64,000 nucleotides of DNA, taken from positions 7,378,001-7,442,000 of the forward strand of contig NZ_CP107819.1 in the NCBI RefSeq assembly GCF_036346295.1. Reading direction: 5' to 3'. The stretch is from Streptomyces sp. NBC_00536. GTDB taxonomy: Bacteria; Actinomycetota; Actinomycetes; Streptomycetales; Streptomycetaceae. The notes beneath the pieces were generated by a model. That model was given only the letters and a program-made list of their open reading frames with translations. It had not been told where the DNA came from and did not search any database. The position numbers and the translations under genes were made by a program. Below are positions 30,560-35,820 of the stretch, in pieces (the first letter of the stretch is position 1; every line of letters begins with the position of its first letter).

Positions 30560-31444
30560 ATGAAAACTGACGAGCCGACAGTAGGGCGACGCGTGCTCCT
30601 GCGTTCCGCCGTCTTCCTCGGAATCGCCGCCGCGGCCTCCGGCCTGCTCGGCGAGGAGGAGGCCGCGGATCCCGCCCGGCCCGGCGCTCCCGGCGCGGGT
30701 GGCGGCGCGGGGGCGCCCGGAGCCCCCGCGCCGAACCGGCAGGGCGCGCCCTCGAACGCGTACCGGCTGAGCCCGATGACCGCCGACGCGCCGCCCCGGT
30801 ACCAGCGGGCCAAGCCCGCCGTCCGCACCCGTCCCATCCTGGAACTCTCCGGCGCGCCCGGCGCCCCGGCCGTCGGCAGCCAGATGGTGCTCACCTTCGA
30901 CGACGGCCCCGACCCCCGCTACACCCCCGGGATCCTGGACACCCTCGCCCGGTACGGGGTCCGCGCGATGTTCTTCGTCTGCGGGGAGATGGCCACCGAC
31001 AACCGGGACCTGATCCGGCGGATGGCCGACGAGGGGCACGTCATCGGCAACCACACCTGGACCCACCCGCTCATCCCGACGCTCACCCGGCCCGGCCTCG
31101 CCTCCGAGATCGGCCGCACGAGCGAGGTCGTACAGCAGGTCACGGGGGAGGCGCCGCAGTGGTTCCGGGCGCCGTACGGCGCGTGGAACCGGGCCGCCTT
31201 CGAGATCGGCGCGGAGCTGGGGATGGAGCCGCTCGCCTGGACCGTGGACACGCTGGACTGGACCGAGCCGGGCACCCCCACGATCGTCTCGCGGGTGCTC
31301 AAGGGGGCCGCTCCCGGGGTGATCGTGCTCTCGCACGACGCGGGCGGCAACCGGACGCAGAGCGTCCAGGCGCTGGGCGAATACCTGCCCCAACTCCTGG
31401 CCCGCGGCTACCGGATGACCCTGCCGGGCCTGCGGTCCCACTGA
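30560..31444 (+). CDS. Secreted polysaccharide deacetylase (NodB/CE4 domain)
   Basis: A 294-residue protein with an N-terminal twin-arginine-like signal (VGRRVLLRSAVFLGIAAAAS), a Gly/Ala/Pro linker, and a CE4 domain from about residue 110. The motifs are complete: MT1 LTFDDGPDP with the base and metal Asp, MT2 NHTWTHP, MT3 FRAPYGAWN, MT4 DTLDWTEPG and MT5 VIVLSHDAGG. It should deacetylate N-acetylated sugars of peptidoglycan, chitin or an exopolysaccharide. ATG 30560 lies 72 nt after lysX. Convergent with the class F sortase gene, it fits a cell-surface cluster. Confidence 0.92.
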   Translation: MKTDEPTVGRRVLLRSAVFLGIAAAASGLLGEEEAADPARPGAPGAGGGAGAPGAPAPNRQGAPSNAYRLSPMTADAPPRYQRAKPAVRTRPILELSGAPGAPAVGSQMVLTFDDGPDPRYTPGILDTLARYGVRAMFFVCGEMATDNRDLIRRMADEGHVIGNHTWTHPLIPTLTRPGLASEIGRTSEVVQQVTGEAPQWFRAPYGAWNRAAFEIGAELGMEPLAWTVDTLDWTEPGTPTIVSRVLKGAAPGVIVLSHDAGGNRTQSVQALGEYLPQLLARGYRMTLPGLRSH

Positions 31445-31499: not shown

Positions 31500-32228
31500 T
31501 CAGCGCGTCTCCACCATCCGGGCGAAGACGACCACGTTGCCGTCGTAGCCGCGGGCCTTCGAATAACCGCCGCCACAGGTGATCACCCGGAGTTCCGGCT
31601 GGCCGGTGTCCCCGTACACCCGGGCTCCGGGGAAGGAGTCCTTGGCGAAGACCTCCACGCCGTACACCTCGAACACCGCCGTGCGCCCGTCGTAGCGCTG
31701 CACCTCGATCCGGTTGCCCTTCTGCAGCGCGCCCAGCCCGTAGAAGACCGCCGGGCCCTTCGCGTTGTCCACGTGCCCCACGATCACCGCCGAGCCCCGC
31801 TGGCCGGGCGAGATGCCGTTGAGGTACCAGCCCGCCAGGTTCGGGTCCTGCGGCGGCGGGGCGTCGATCCAGCCCTCCGCGTCCAGCCCGACCGTCATCA
31901 CCGGCGCGTCCACCTTGATCGACGGGATCCGCACCCGCTGCACCGAGGAGTGCTCCAGCGGCTCCGGCGGCGGCCCGGGCGGCTGCTCCGGCAGCTGCTG
32001 CGCCGTCTGGTCCGGCTGCTGCTCCGGCACCTGCCCCGTTACGGGCGTGCTCGGCGCGGGCTGCGGCTGCCCGGGGCGCACCCCGACGGCCGCCGCGGCG
32101 GCCGGCTGGGGCGGTCCGTCCTCGAACTCCGCCCCGTTCCGGACCATGGCGAGGCCGGTGAGCATGACGAGGGCGAGCACTCCCCACGGTGAGCGTCTTC
32201 GCGACGGAACGGTCTCGTCCCAGCCCAT
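31500..32228 (-). CDS. Class F sortase
   Basis: A 242-residue membrane-anchored transpeptidase. A single N-terminal helix (about 14-30, PWGVLALVMLTGLAMV) serves as anchor. A Gln/Pro-rich stalk (about 40-93) is followed by the sortase barrel with catalytic His152 in GHVDN and Cys218 in VITCGGGYSKARG; Arg226 is the likeliest arginine partner. The short calcium-free shape and the IPSIKVDAPV start of the barrel are typical of actinobacterial class F. It should cleave a C-terminal sorting signal of surface proteins and transfer them to a nucleophile. The next two genes encode secreted proteins with identical GGLGGS tails. RBS GGGAAGGGAG. Confidence 0.92.
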   Translation of the reverse strand: MGWDETVPSRRRSPWGVLALVMLTGLAMVRNGAEFEDGPPQPAAAAAVGVRPGQPQPAPSTPVTGQVPEQQPDQTAQQLPEQPPGPPPEPLEHSSVQRVRIPSIKVDAPVMTVGLDAEGWIDAPPPQDPNLAGWYLNGISPGQRGSAVIVGHVDNAKGPAVFYGLGALQKGNRIEVQRYDGRTAVFEVYGVEVFAKDSFPGARVYGDTGQPELRVITCGGGYSKARGYDGNVVVFARMVETR

Positions 32229-32432
32229 GGTTCTCCCTTCCCGACGCGGGGGTCCCGACCCGCGTTCCGTTCCCACCCCACATGCACTGCTTCGTACGCC
32301 CTGCTTCACGCACGCTAAGGCTGTGCGCGCAGGACGGCGAGGGGGGAGGCGCGAACGGGTGGCGGACCCCGGCCGGGCCGGGGCGGGGGGCCGTACGGGA
32401 TGCGCCCATCCAGGTAATCGTCACATAAATGC

Positions 32433-32462
32433 CTGACGGGTCGTGACCTGCGGATCCGTCAG
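32433..32462. promoter_or_regulatory. Inverted repeat CTGACGG-N16-CCGTCAG
   Basis: A dyad with 7-bp arms in the middle of the 391-nt region between the divergent sortase and secreted-protein genes. This gap holds no gene; both promoters must lie here. The wide spacing makes an operator or a stem-loop leader equally possible. Confidence 0.35.
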
Positions 32463-32619
32463 ATGAGCCCCCGTCGCCTCGGCGTGTCGCTCAACCGGGC
32501 GGCCCAAAGGCGGAAATGCGCTGGTTGCGGACCGGGCCGAGGGTTCGTCATGGGAGGCGTTCTCGTCGATGATCCCGGGCGACCACCGCTCCGGGGCGCT
32601 TCCCGCTGGAGGTTCCATC

Positions 32620-33156
32620 ATGCGTGCTTCTCGCGCTCTCACCATGACCGCGGCGGTCATCGCCGTCGTCGGACTCGCCACTCCGTTCGCCAGTGCGAGC
32701 AGCAACGAGCCGGCCGGCGGCCCGGCCGGCGGACCCGGCGGCGGCGGGCCCGGCGGCGGGCCGAGAAACGTCTCGGTCTCCCCGTACTCGGTGCACCCGG
32801 GCGCCTCGATGGAGGTCAAGGCGGAGGGCTGCACCCGCGGCGGCACGGTCTGGTCGCCCGGCAACTTCGAGCAGGCGAACCTGTCGGGCGGGTCCCCGGC
32901 CTTCGCCACCGTGCACATCCGGCACAACGCCCGGACCGGGGACCAGAACCTCTCGGTCAAGTGCCACGACAACAGCCTCGTCGCCACCCAGCGCTTCCGG
33001 ATCCTGGAGGGCCGGGGCGCGCAGGGCGGACTCGGCGGCTCCATCGGCCCGTCCGCCACCGAGACCGCCATCGGCGCGGGCCTCGTGGGCACGGCCGCCC
33101 TCGGCGCGGGCATCCACGTGATGCGCCGCCGCCGCCCGGTCCACGGGCGGGTCTGA
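32620..33156 (+). CDS. Secreted Ig-like protein with GGLGGS-TM-Arg C-terminus (paralogue A)
   Basis: A 178-residue exported protein. A signal peptide of about 27 residues ends ASA. A Gly/Pro spacer (about 31-48) is followed by a beta-sandwich-like domain (about 49-131: VSVSPYSVHPGASMEVKAEG to SVKCHDN) with one likely disulfide, Cys71-Cys115. The C-terminus has GAQGGLGGS (GGLGGS at 136-141), a hydrophobic stretch (about 147-166) and MRRRR. It is paralogous to the gene at 33266-33796, which is convergent. The tripartite tail next to a sortase gene suggests wall or membrane anchoring. RBS GGAGG 7 nt before ATG. The function of the sandwich domain is unknown. Confidence 0.85.
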   Translation: MRASRALTMTAAVIAVVGLATPFASASSNEPAGGPAGGPGGGGPGGGPRNVSVSPYSVHPGASMEVKAEGCTRGGTVWSPGNFEQANLSGGSPAFATVHIRHNARTGDQNLSVKCHDNSLVATQRFRILEGRGAQGGLGGSIGPSATETAIGAGLVGTAALGAGIHVMRRRRPVHGRV

Positions 33157-33192
33157 CCGGCAGCCTCCCCGGTCGTGCCCAGCAGCCCGTGA

Positions 33193-33240
33193 ACCGCCGG
33201 TCGCCCCGAGTCCTGGCCAGGACTCGGGGCGACCGGCGGT
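33193..33240. terminator. 48-bp perfect palindrome between convergent secreted-protein genes
   Basis: Two 24-bp arms meet without a spacer (the arm begins ACCGCCGGTCGCCCCGAG), 36 nt after paralogue A and 25 nt before the end of paralogue B. It should act as a strong bidirectional terminator. A perfect arm this long without any mismatch is notable. Confidence 0.85.
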
Positions 33241-33265
33241 CGATGGTCGACAGTCGATACGGGGC

Positions 33266-33796
33266 TCAGTGCCCGCGGGCGTTCGTACGGCGCCGGACCG
33301 CGTACCCGGTCCCGGCGGCCGCGGCCAGGAGGAGACCCGCGCCCGCGGCCAGTTCGCCCGTGTCCATCCCGGCGACGCTGCCACCGAGACCGCCGCGCAC
33401 ACCGCGCGACGCGGCTGTGGACCTCGTGGTGGGGGTGCTCGTCCCGCCCGCGATGGTGAGATCGGTGGAACCGGTCTCGTTGTTGCAGGTGAAGTTGACG
33501 GAGTAACGGGCCCCGCGCCGGGCGTCCCGGTCCACCGTGACCCGTACGGTCTTGCCCTTCGGCACGCTCACGGTGTCGAAGATGCCGGAGGAGACGGTGG
33601 TGCTCGCCGCCGTACAGCCGGTGACCGAGAGCACGACCGAACCGCCGGGCGCGACCGTCGAGGGGGCGACGGCGAACCCGAACGAGGTGACCGGCTGGGC
33701 CCCCGCCGCGACGGCGCAGGACGCACCGAGCGCGAGGACGGTGCCCGCGGCCCCGGCGACGAGGAGAGCGGTGACTGACGTACGTATCGCGCCCAT
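33266..33796 (-). CDS. Secreted Ig-like protein with GGLGGS-TM-Arg C-terminus (paralogue B)
   Basis: A 176-residue exported protein, a diverged paralogue of the gene at 32620. A signal peptide (about 1-31) ends VAA. The sandwich domain (about 38-116) starts FAVAPSTVAPGGSVVLSVTG and carries one likely disulfide, Cys61-Cys104 (NFTCNNET). A Thr/Ser-rich spacer leads to RGVRGGLGGS (GGLGGS at 135-140). A hydrophobic helix (about 148-166) and RRR follow. The tail spacing is the same as in paralogue A, although the surrounding residues have diverged. That pattern fits recognition by a shared enzyme, presumably the adjacent class F sortase. Start ATG 33796. Confidence 0.85.
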   Translation of the reverse strand: MGAIRTSVTALLVAGAAGTVLALGASCAVAAGAQPVTSFGFAVAPSTVAPGGSVVLSVTGCTAASTTVSSGIFDTVSVPKGKTVRVTVDRDARRGARYSVNFTCNNETGSTDLTIAGGTSTPTTRSTAASRGVRGGLGGSVAGMDTGELAAGAGLLLAAAAGTGYAVRRRTNARGH

Positions 33797-34869: not shown

Positions 34870-35562
34870 TCAGCGCGAGCGCAGCGCGACGATGGCGAGC
34901 ACGGCGGGGGCCGCCGTGAGCAGGGTGAAGGTGACCGGTGAGATGTGGTGCGCCACCGGTTTACGGGCCTGCGCGTGGTAAGCGGGCCTGGGCACCGGCT
35001 TCTTCGCGGGCGGCGCCACCACCGGGGCCGGCGGAGGCGGCGGCGCGGGCGGGGGCGGCGGCGCGGGAGCCCGGTACACCCGGGGCGCGGGCGGCGCCGG
35101 TTTCGGGGGCGCGGGCGGTGGCGGCGGGGGCTCGGGCGCCGGCGCGGGAGGCGCGGGCGGGGTGGGCTTCGGGGGCGGCGTGGGCGTGGGTTCGGGTTTC
35201 GGCGGTGTCGGTGTGGGCGTCGGAGCAGGGGTGGGCGTCGGGCACGGCGGGGGCGGGGGCGGGGGCGGGGGTGGCGGACAGGGCGGGGGCCACGGCAGGC
35301 AGTGGTGCCCGCCGTGGTGGCCGCAGTGGTTCCCGCCGTGGCCGTCGTGGTCGTCGTCGTGATGTCCGCCACCCCGGGAACCCCCGCCACCACCGCGGAG
35401 GCTCTCGCTCCGGGCTGCCGCGACCAGCTCGACGACGGTCCTGCCGTCGTCCGGGCCGGGCATCGCGTGGGCGCGGCTATCGGCCACGGCGGGTGTGGCG
35501 GACAGCGCCGCCCACACCAGCACCGGGACCGCCAGCAGGCGCCGGGCACAGGGTCTGTTCAC
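34870..35562 (-). CDS. Proline-rich secreted protein with C-terminal membrane anchor
   Basis: A 230-residue low-complexity protein. A signal peptide (ARRLLAVPVLVWAALSATPA) is followed by a short helical part. Then comes a His/Gly/Asp-rich segment (HHDDDHDGHGG, possibly metal-binding) and about 110 residues of Pro/Ala/Thr/Lys. A C-terminal hydrophobic helix ends ALRSR. The shape suits a wall-spanning stalk. It lacks the GGLGGS motif of its neighbours but belongs to the same surface cluster, 72 nt upstream of the DUF4239 gene and co-directional. The GTG start is inferred from the signal peptide; no strong ribosome-binding site is seen. Confidence 0.62.
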   Translation of the reverse strand: MNRPCARRLLAVPVLVWAALSATPAVADSRAHAMPGPDDGRTVVELVAAARSESLRGGGGGSRGGGHHDDDHDGHGGNHCGHHGGHHCLPWPPPCPPPPPPPPPPPCPTPTPAPTPTPTPPKPEPTPTPPPKPTPPAPPAPAPEPPPPPPAPPKPAPPAPRVYRAPAPPPPPAPPPPPAPVVAPPAKKPVPRPAYHAQARKPVAHHISPVTFTLLTAAPAVLAIVALRSR

Positions 35563-35820
35563 CCGGGGAGCATGGGGCCGCGTGCCCTCCGGCACTCCCG
35601 CACCAGCCTCCGTTCCTCCGAACGGGCGGAGTTGGGACCGTAGAGGTTTGAGCCACTGGACGGTGGTGTCCGATCGAGCGTCGATCAATTCCCAAAAGGT
35701 ATTTGTCGGTTTCGATCATTCCCGGCGGACGGGGCTCCTGGTGTGTTTGGTGTGTGACGAAGAACGGACCGCCAATTTCCGCTTTCGCTCGCTCCGTTGG
35801 GCAATGATCAGTACATTCGG

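Follow-up and report, generated by a model that had tools for sequence, protein, structure and literature searches.

A class F sortase and two neighbouring proteins with glycine-type candidate sorting signals in Streptomyces

Described sortase systems and the locus

Sortase classes A to E have assigned sorting signals, each with a Thr, and none is given for class F in the portion of PMC5148588 cited here, in which class E is described as reading LAXTG, with proven anchors in Streptomyces. For class F, the cited excerpt of PMC6998099 records "no function designated". Here we describe a 64,000-nucleotide stretch of DNA from Streptomyces sp. NBC_00536 (the window; positions 7378001-7442000 of contig 1, in a genome of 9.15 Mb) that carries a trio of genes encoding a class F sortase and two proteins, A and B, each ending in a tail that resembles a sorting signal. 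We consider it likely that this locus is a dedicated sortase-substrate module, in which the neighbouring class F sortase reads the tails of A and B and anchors both proteins to the wall.

The tails share with LPXTG and LAXTG signals a pentapeptide, a helix and a basic tail, a variable P2 and, in A as in LAXTG, Ala at P3 (P and P′ positions are counted from the predicted scissile bond), but differ in having Gly at P4 and P1 and an extra conserved [LI]GGS past that bond. The same tripartite tail is found in NCBIfam NF058571, GVDTG_CTERM ("GVDTG sorting domain-containing protein"), which recognises a form with Thr at P1 where A and B have Gly. As judged by sequence, the A/B tail is related to this Thr form, and the Gly version is the new part. 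GlyGly-CTERM tails also combine a Gly-rich C-terminal motif, a helix and a basic tail; there, however, the processing enzyme is a rhomboid, rhombosortase (TIGR03902). The enzyme of Propionibacterium (Cutibacterium) acnes belongs to the same sortase class, but 19 substrates are predicted for it in the cited part of PMC8200545, whereas the window enzyme is one of six paralogues and has its own neighbour pair. Searches of the open-licence PubMed Central literature listed no paper whose title or opening abstract lines name a class F signal of the G-[VA]-x-G-G form; GVDTG returned only unrelated papers there, and GGLGG is absent from the 15 of 299 sortase and sorting-signal matches listed.

The sortase and A genes are divergent, A and B are convergent, and B shares the strand of the sortase. 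The features are as follows, with window coordinates (slash, predicted scissile bond):

31500..32228, minus strand: class F sortase, 242 aa (NCBIfam NF033748, Pfam Sortase, conserved residues)
32620..33156, plus strand: protein A, 178 aa, predicted substrate (open reading frame; upstream GGAGG read directly)
33016..33042, plus strand: candidate signal of A, GAQG/GLGGS (read directly; conservation)
33067..33123, plus strand: hydrophobic stretch near the C-terminus of A, with RRRR after it (read directly)
33266..33796, minus strand: protein B, 176 aa, predicted substrate (open reading frame, relatives, AlphaFold model)
33377..33403, minus strand: candidate signal of B, GVRG/GLGGS (read directly; conservation)
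33278..33361, minus strand: C-terminal helix of B, residues 146-173 including RRR (AlphaFold model)

The sortase comprises an N-terminal hydrophobic stretch, a Pro/Gln-rich linker and the sortase domain. It belongs to class F, scoring 214.4 bits on NCBIfam NF033748 (curated cut-off 166), and Pfam Sortase matches it with E=1e-23. The catalytic His152 and Cys218, numbered from the ATG (His153 and Cys219 in the analysis numbering used below), are both present and are invariant in 89/89 aligned class F domains, so that the intact class F sortase of the preliminary description is confirmed. At the aligned place of the superfamily catalytic Arg, a column equivalence taken from our own alignment, the window sortase has Asn, as do 43/44 rows with Gly-type neighbours, 31/32 with Thr-type neighbours and 12/12 unlabelled rows; the enzyme can still be counted in class F, because an Arg to Asn replacement is reported for actinobacterial class F in the cited excerpt of PMC6998099. 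Near-invariant Arg residues lie elsewhere in the sortase (R179 and R215). A search of the PDB with the sortase sequence returned no match at E≤0.001. A class F-like sortase that adjoins a GVDTGSGP tail in another genome (L404, G296:C1:5295500-5302100) has Gln at the aligned catalytic His column.

Six class F-like sortases are encoded in the genome of the window, five above the cut-off and one at 157 bits. A second class F sortase (2630499), in the region 2629942-2630951 of contig 1 (L012), has a neighbour whose tail, HVRTGVGGG followed by a helix and RRR, makes it a Thr-type sister module. At 3085381-3085842 of contig 1 (L015:4904-6269), the upstream neighbour of another class F sortase ends in DHDTGGPGLPHT, a helix and RRRR, a third tail type that falls outside both motifs.

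Proteins A and B are homologous, with B as query retrieving A from its own genome at 37% identity (E=1.1e-5), and Pfam assigns neither to a family at a meaningful score. Protein A has a signal-peptide-like start, a Gly-rich linker, a small body homologous to B and the sorting-signal-like tail, in which GAQGGLGGS is followed by 37 residues that comprise a hydrophobic stretch, RRRR and a short end. B likewise has a signal-peptide-like start, followed by an immunoglobulin (Ig)-like β-sandwich, a disordered linker and the tail, with 36 residues (hydrophobic stretch, RRR, short end) after GVRGGLGGS at residues 132-140. The two diverged paralogues with GGLGGS, a helix and an Arg cluster had been noticed before, and these readings bear them out. 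An AlphaFold model of B, built with 43 aligned A- and B-family sequences (whole-chain mean predicted local distance difference test score, pLDDT, 68.1; predicted template modelling score 0.46), has seven strands in residues 40-115, with pLDDT 90-94 over 41-110. Residues 120-145, which contain GVRGGLGGS, fall below pLDDT 50, and helix 146-173 follows directly, placing the signal in what is probably a disordered linker right before the helix. Foldseek against the PDB gives a best E of 2.1e-3 and none at ≤0.001; many top matches are Ig-like, the first being a Clostridium pilin domain, and the fold search supports an Ig-like assignment for B, with no closer relative. The modelled arrangement of a folded Ig-like domain, a flexible stalk and a membrane helix would suit a sortase substrate but does not prove one.

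Conservation, register and modularity of the tail

B has 482 relatives in the searches and A has 148, and we examined the best 120 from each set. A Streptomyces venezuelae protein (P0115) is among the relatives of B. Gly stands at P1, P1′ and P3′ in 120/120 relatives of B and 120/120 of A, and the strict form GG[LVIF]GGS is found in 118/120 relatives of B. P3 is Val in 120/120 B relatives, and Ala in 109/120 A relatives with Ser in 11; P4 is Gly in 112/120 B and 108/120 A, P2′ is Leu in 110/120 B and Leu or Ile in 119/120 A, and P5′ is Ser in 119/120 B and 115/120 A. P2 is the most variable of P4 to P1′ in both families, like the X of LPXTG; in B it is Arg or Gln, whereas in A it ranges over Gln, Glu, Leu, Asp, His and others. 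The conserved unit is G-[VA]-x-G-G-[LI]-G-G-S, which starts three residues before the GGLGGS hexapeptide. The hexapeptide, taken as the unit in the preliminary description, is indeed conserved, but a more fitting division of the signal is G[VA]xGG plus a trailing LGGS, in which the first GG takes the place of the LPXTG Thr-Gly.

The layout of motif, hydrophobic helix and basic C-terminal tail is that of LPXTG-type signals, and at P1 Gly stands in place of the LPXTG-type Thr in 240/240 of the A and B relatives examined. HVRTGVGG and SVKTGVGG tails adjoin other Streptomyces class F sortases, and when HVRTGVGG is aligned to GVRGGLGG its Thr-Gly falls on the first Gly-Gly. An intermediate exists near the base of the window's sortase clade, where a 52% identical sortase (L203) adjoins GARTGLGG, the motif of A with Thr. 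This alignment and this intermediate thus give the signal an LPXTG-like register in which P1 is Gly.

The tail is also found on an unrelated body. BLASTP comparison of bodies minus tail, over 151 records (some fetched twice), resolves 144 records (116 distinct bodies) that include A and B, five whose bodies contain D[LR]DCxDF, and two that are a single LAHTG protein of the window's own genome fetched twice. In the five-member cluster the best family is Excalibur, at E=0.018 and below its cut-off, in one of four scanned; the tails of these five Excalibur-like proteins (GVRGGLGGS twice, GVQGGLGGS, GVRGGIGGA and GVRGGVGGA) are of the A/B kind, and the tail is therefore a modular signal. No class F sortase is found in the 12-kb loci of these five proteins. 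The LAHTG protein (contig 1, 7501745-7501843; L135) is of class E type, and both kinds of signal thus coexist in one genome.

Association of the tail with class F sortases

We find that the tails and the sortase travel together in Streptomyces. Searching GTDB contigs with nothing but the protein sequence of the sortase yields 58 loci, of which 56 are from Streptomyces, one from "Actinobacteria bacterium OV450" and one from Kibdelosporangium. The trio is present, for example, in S. lavendulae CCM 3239 (L166). Both tails lie beside the sortase in 54/58 loci, one tail in 3 and none in 1, with at least one in 57/58; the tail-less locus is that of Kibdelosporangium, whose sortase has 43% identity. 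From the side of the tail, a profile (A1; 46 positions, 27 rows) matches 58/61 Streptomyces genomes at E≤0.01, and class F sortases are present in 61/61. Among the best 150 tail matches listed in these 61 genomes, 97 have a listed class F sortase no more than 2.5 kb away and 14 of the other 53 are adjacent once the loci are read, a total of 111/150; the chance of such adjacency, roughly reckoned by hand as six sortases × ~5.5 kb in 8.5 Mb, is 0.4%. Together with the unrelated body in five loci, these counts support the earlier proposal that the tail is a sorting signal tied to class F sortases, with A and B as the likely cargo, as had also been suggested.

The window's sortase clade is present in 46/61 Streptomyces genomes (hand count, matches ≥230 bits). 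For the 15 genomes without it, 39 tail matches are listed and 30 were fetched, and the 10 fetched tails that have a class F sortase in the locus are 9 of Thr type and 1 of Gly type (G045, PARGGLGG); G015 and G030 keep degenerate Gly-type orphan tails. G015, G030 and G045 thus contradict the idea that Gly-type tails and the sortase clade of the window always occur together, and because the pairing is not strict it does not serve as proof here. Streptomyces is a weak test of whether the Gly form is equally common where class F is absent, since all 61 sampled genomes have class F.

The association extends well beyond this genus. A class F sortase exceeds the cut-off in 67/148 Actinomycetes genomes, and a strong match (E<1e-40, hand count) is found in 71/148. 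We fetched 80 of the 87 non-Streptomyces sortases among the matches listed (hand count), with up to ~3 kb on each side and a few overlaps between loci, and counted as a related tail any x[VAMIPT]x[TAGS]GxG[GSTAP] followed by a helix and a basic tail within 1.5 kb. Such a tail is present at 62/80 of these loci, and the first match has Thr at P1 in 37, Ala in 20 and Gly in 5. The density is 66 tails per 227.5 kb near sortases versus 2 per 464.65 kb of background, or ~67-fold, where the background consists of stretches >2.5 kb from a class F sortase (the window, loci L012-L017 of its own genome and flanks of the fetched loci) and one of its two matches is an own-genome orphan at a locus that had been retrieved because of that tail. 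With G[VA]x[T/A/G]GxGG tails flanking class F sortases in other Actinomycetes families, the idea that this kind of signal is special to Streptomyces must be given up.

GVDTG_CTERM gives a parallel measure for the Thr form. The HVRTGVGGG neighbour and a related protein beside Streptomyces class F sortases pass its cut-off of 29 (35.1 and 37.2 bits). Over-cut-off matches occur in 39/148 genomes, and 39/39 of these have a strong class F match (p=1.8e-16, uncorrected for phylogeny); of the 51 over-cut-off places, 37 have a listed class F sortase at most 2.5 kb away. In 22 further genomes only below-cut-off GVDTG matches are found, and 15 of these have a strong class F match. One Streptomyces genome of the 148 (G220) lacks class F and GVDTG matches alike. 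Contrary to the earlier proposal, the signal is thus not wholly undescribed, since NF058571 already models the Thr form; given this, and how far A and B fall below the cut-off of that model, we regard the Gly tail as a variant within an existing kind.

We then compare tail type with sortase sequence. A tree built by a quick method from 208 sortase records, reduced to 153 distinct domains and 89 representatives below 88% identity, was labelled by the neighbour's tail; the sample leans to high-scoring class F sortases and to loci fetched for a tail, the Gly-type (GG) label covers G, A and S at P1, and a few of these labels, such as those of L065, L081 and L148, look doubtful when the loci are read. 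Of the 40 rows in the window's clade (Shimodaira-Hasegawa-like approximate likelihood ratio support 95), 37 have Gly-type neighbours, 2 have none and 1 has Thr. The GG label requires 10 changes on the tree versus 30.2 when shuffled, with 0/500 shuffles as low, a result that near-copies help.

Within the enzyme, residue 151, two before the catalytic His153, varies with the tail. In a covariation set of 214 rows (L364 and L374 were dropped, their motif parse not being credible), it is Val in 110/124 rows with not purely Thr tails, five of them mixed, versus 8/90 Thr rows, and mostly Ala or Leu where tails are Thr-type. Outside Streptomyces the figures are 15/27 versus 5/50 (Fisher p=2.7e-5, with no phylogenetic correction). 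Among the tested columns ranked by weighted mutual information, this residue comes first when all 214 rows are used and second with the 77 non-Streptomyces rows. Phylogeny-aware pairing on starred branches gives 6 pairs, 2.4 going the same way versus 0.1 the other, which is not significant; pairing on all branches of the quick tree gives 14.9 pairs, 5.0 versus 0.5 (p ~0.06; second of 204 site-states), and pooling Val and Ile gives 6.5 versus 0.2 (p ~0.13). The exceptions outside Streptomyces are Thr tails with Val (L227, L317, L320, L326, L327) and Ala tails with neither Val nor Ile (L313, L329, L343, L352, L372, L377, L395); within Streptomyces, they are three Thr rows with Val and two Gly rows that lack it (L106, L125). 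The direction is consistent on the tree and independent contrasts are too few, so that the covariation is suggestive only. The equivalent residue in Staphylococcus aureus sortase A is, we presume, Ala118 in the substrate groove.

A broader proposal, which we put forward tentatively and would not yet favour, is that many Actinomycetes class F sortases have a substrate of their own next door, marked by G-[VA]-x-[T/A/G]-G-x-G-G, and that the P1 Thr, supposedly indispensable, was lost in several lineages. The window's clade would then be Thr-free, cutting between two Gly residues and matched by Val for Ala or Leu two before the catalytic His, in a bump-and-hole manner.

Proposed mechanism and alternatives

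In the module that we propose, A and B would be exported and halted in the membrane by the C-terminal helix and Arg cluster, with the extracellular linker G-[VA]-x-G-G-[LI]-G-G-S offered to the class F sortase next door. The Cys of this enzyme would attack the Gly-Gly bond at the place of the LPXTG Thr-Gly, GVRG/GLGGS in B and GAQG/GLGGS in A, to form an acyl-enzyme, and the Ig-like domain would be handed to a peptidoglycan precursor and end up as a small surface domain anchored to the wall. At P1, Gly would have replaced the Thr still kept by other class F systems.

Several findings weigh against this proposal. Four of the six class F-like sortases in the window's own genome lack a motif-tailed neighbour, one of these four having a different tail, and for 39 of the 150 listed tails no adjacent class F sortase was seen, some of them lying at contig ends and others being true orphans. 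One such orphan is an A/B paralogue of the same genome (contig 1, 2534048-2534176; L002, L017) with the tail GARGGTGGS and no class F sortase within ~5 kb. Gly-type tails persist in 3/15 genomes that lack the window's clade. The outside regular expression was written after reading the loci, with the background scored by the same expression, and 18/80 outside loci have no motif tail, a number that includes contig ends and near-variants such as GAQTGGGL and GAQTGEAP. On GVDTG_CTERM, A reaches only 14.8 bits and B 13.6. Seven of the 22 genomes with weaker GVDTG matches have no strong class F match. Because of the 19 substrates predicted in P. acnes, a dedicated pair is not the only mode of class F action, and deletion of all four class F genes in Actinoplanes missouriensis caused no phenotypic change, as stated in the cited part of PMC13251363.

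Among other explanations, the tail may be a true sorting signal that another enzyme processes, whether class E or another class F sortase, with the neighbour mainly serving something else. Six class F-like sortases in one genome and orphan Gly-type tails far from any sortase make such action in trans possible, but class E reads LAXTG (PMC5148588, in the part cited) and the genome has its separate LAHTG tail at 7501745, while Gly and Thr tails track the clade of the adjacent class F sortase on the tree; we rate this reading as unlikely. It is similarly improbable that the class F sortase acts as a sheddase, cutting the tail and admitting water so that A and B are released rather than wall-bound. 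The Asn in place of the canonical catalytic Arg would fit such an activity; against it, the P. acnes class F enzyme is reportedly called a housekeeping sortase, in the title of a 2019 Biochem J paper only.

That A and B are simply membrane proteins anchored by their tails, with a Gly linker that is flexible and conserved and a sortase that is a bystander, could accommodate the orphan tails, but P1, P1′ and P3′ are invariant in 240/240 relatives, more than a flexible linker needs, and the tail is kept on an unrelated body and adjoins the same enzyme class in other families, so that we give this reading very little credence. Least credible is rhomboid intramembrane proteolysis, as in the GlyGly-CTERM/rhombosortase system of Gram-negatives with which the tail had been compared, since, despite the resemblance of the Gly/Ser-rich motif, helix and basic tail (PMC6219818, in the part cited) and rhomboid-like matches below the cut-off in 41/41 genomes, no rhombosortase (TIGR03902) exceeds the cut-off in any of these 41, the window's own included, NCBIfam lists no GlyGly-CTERM family for A or B at E≤1, and it is a sortase gene that accompanies the tails.

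If the neighbouring class F sortase does read these tails, a signal read from the adjoining genes would offer a candidate substrate for many class F enzymes, which are common in Actinomycetes yet have no assigned role in the cited parts of PMC6998099 and PMC13251363, and a sortase that cuts between two Gly residues would be a new protein ligation tool. Around the trio, an open reading frame at 30560-31444 adjoins the sortase and resembles, by eye only, a polysaccharide deacetylase, and a His/Gly/Pro-rich open reading frame at 34870-35688 on the minus strand has a C-terminal hydrophobic stretch and RSR and lacks the Gly-type motif.

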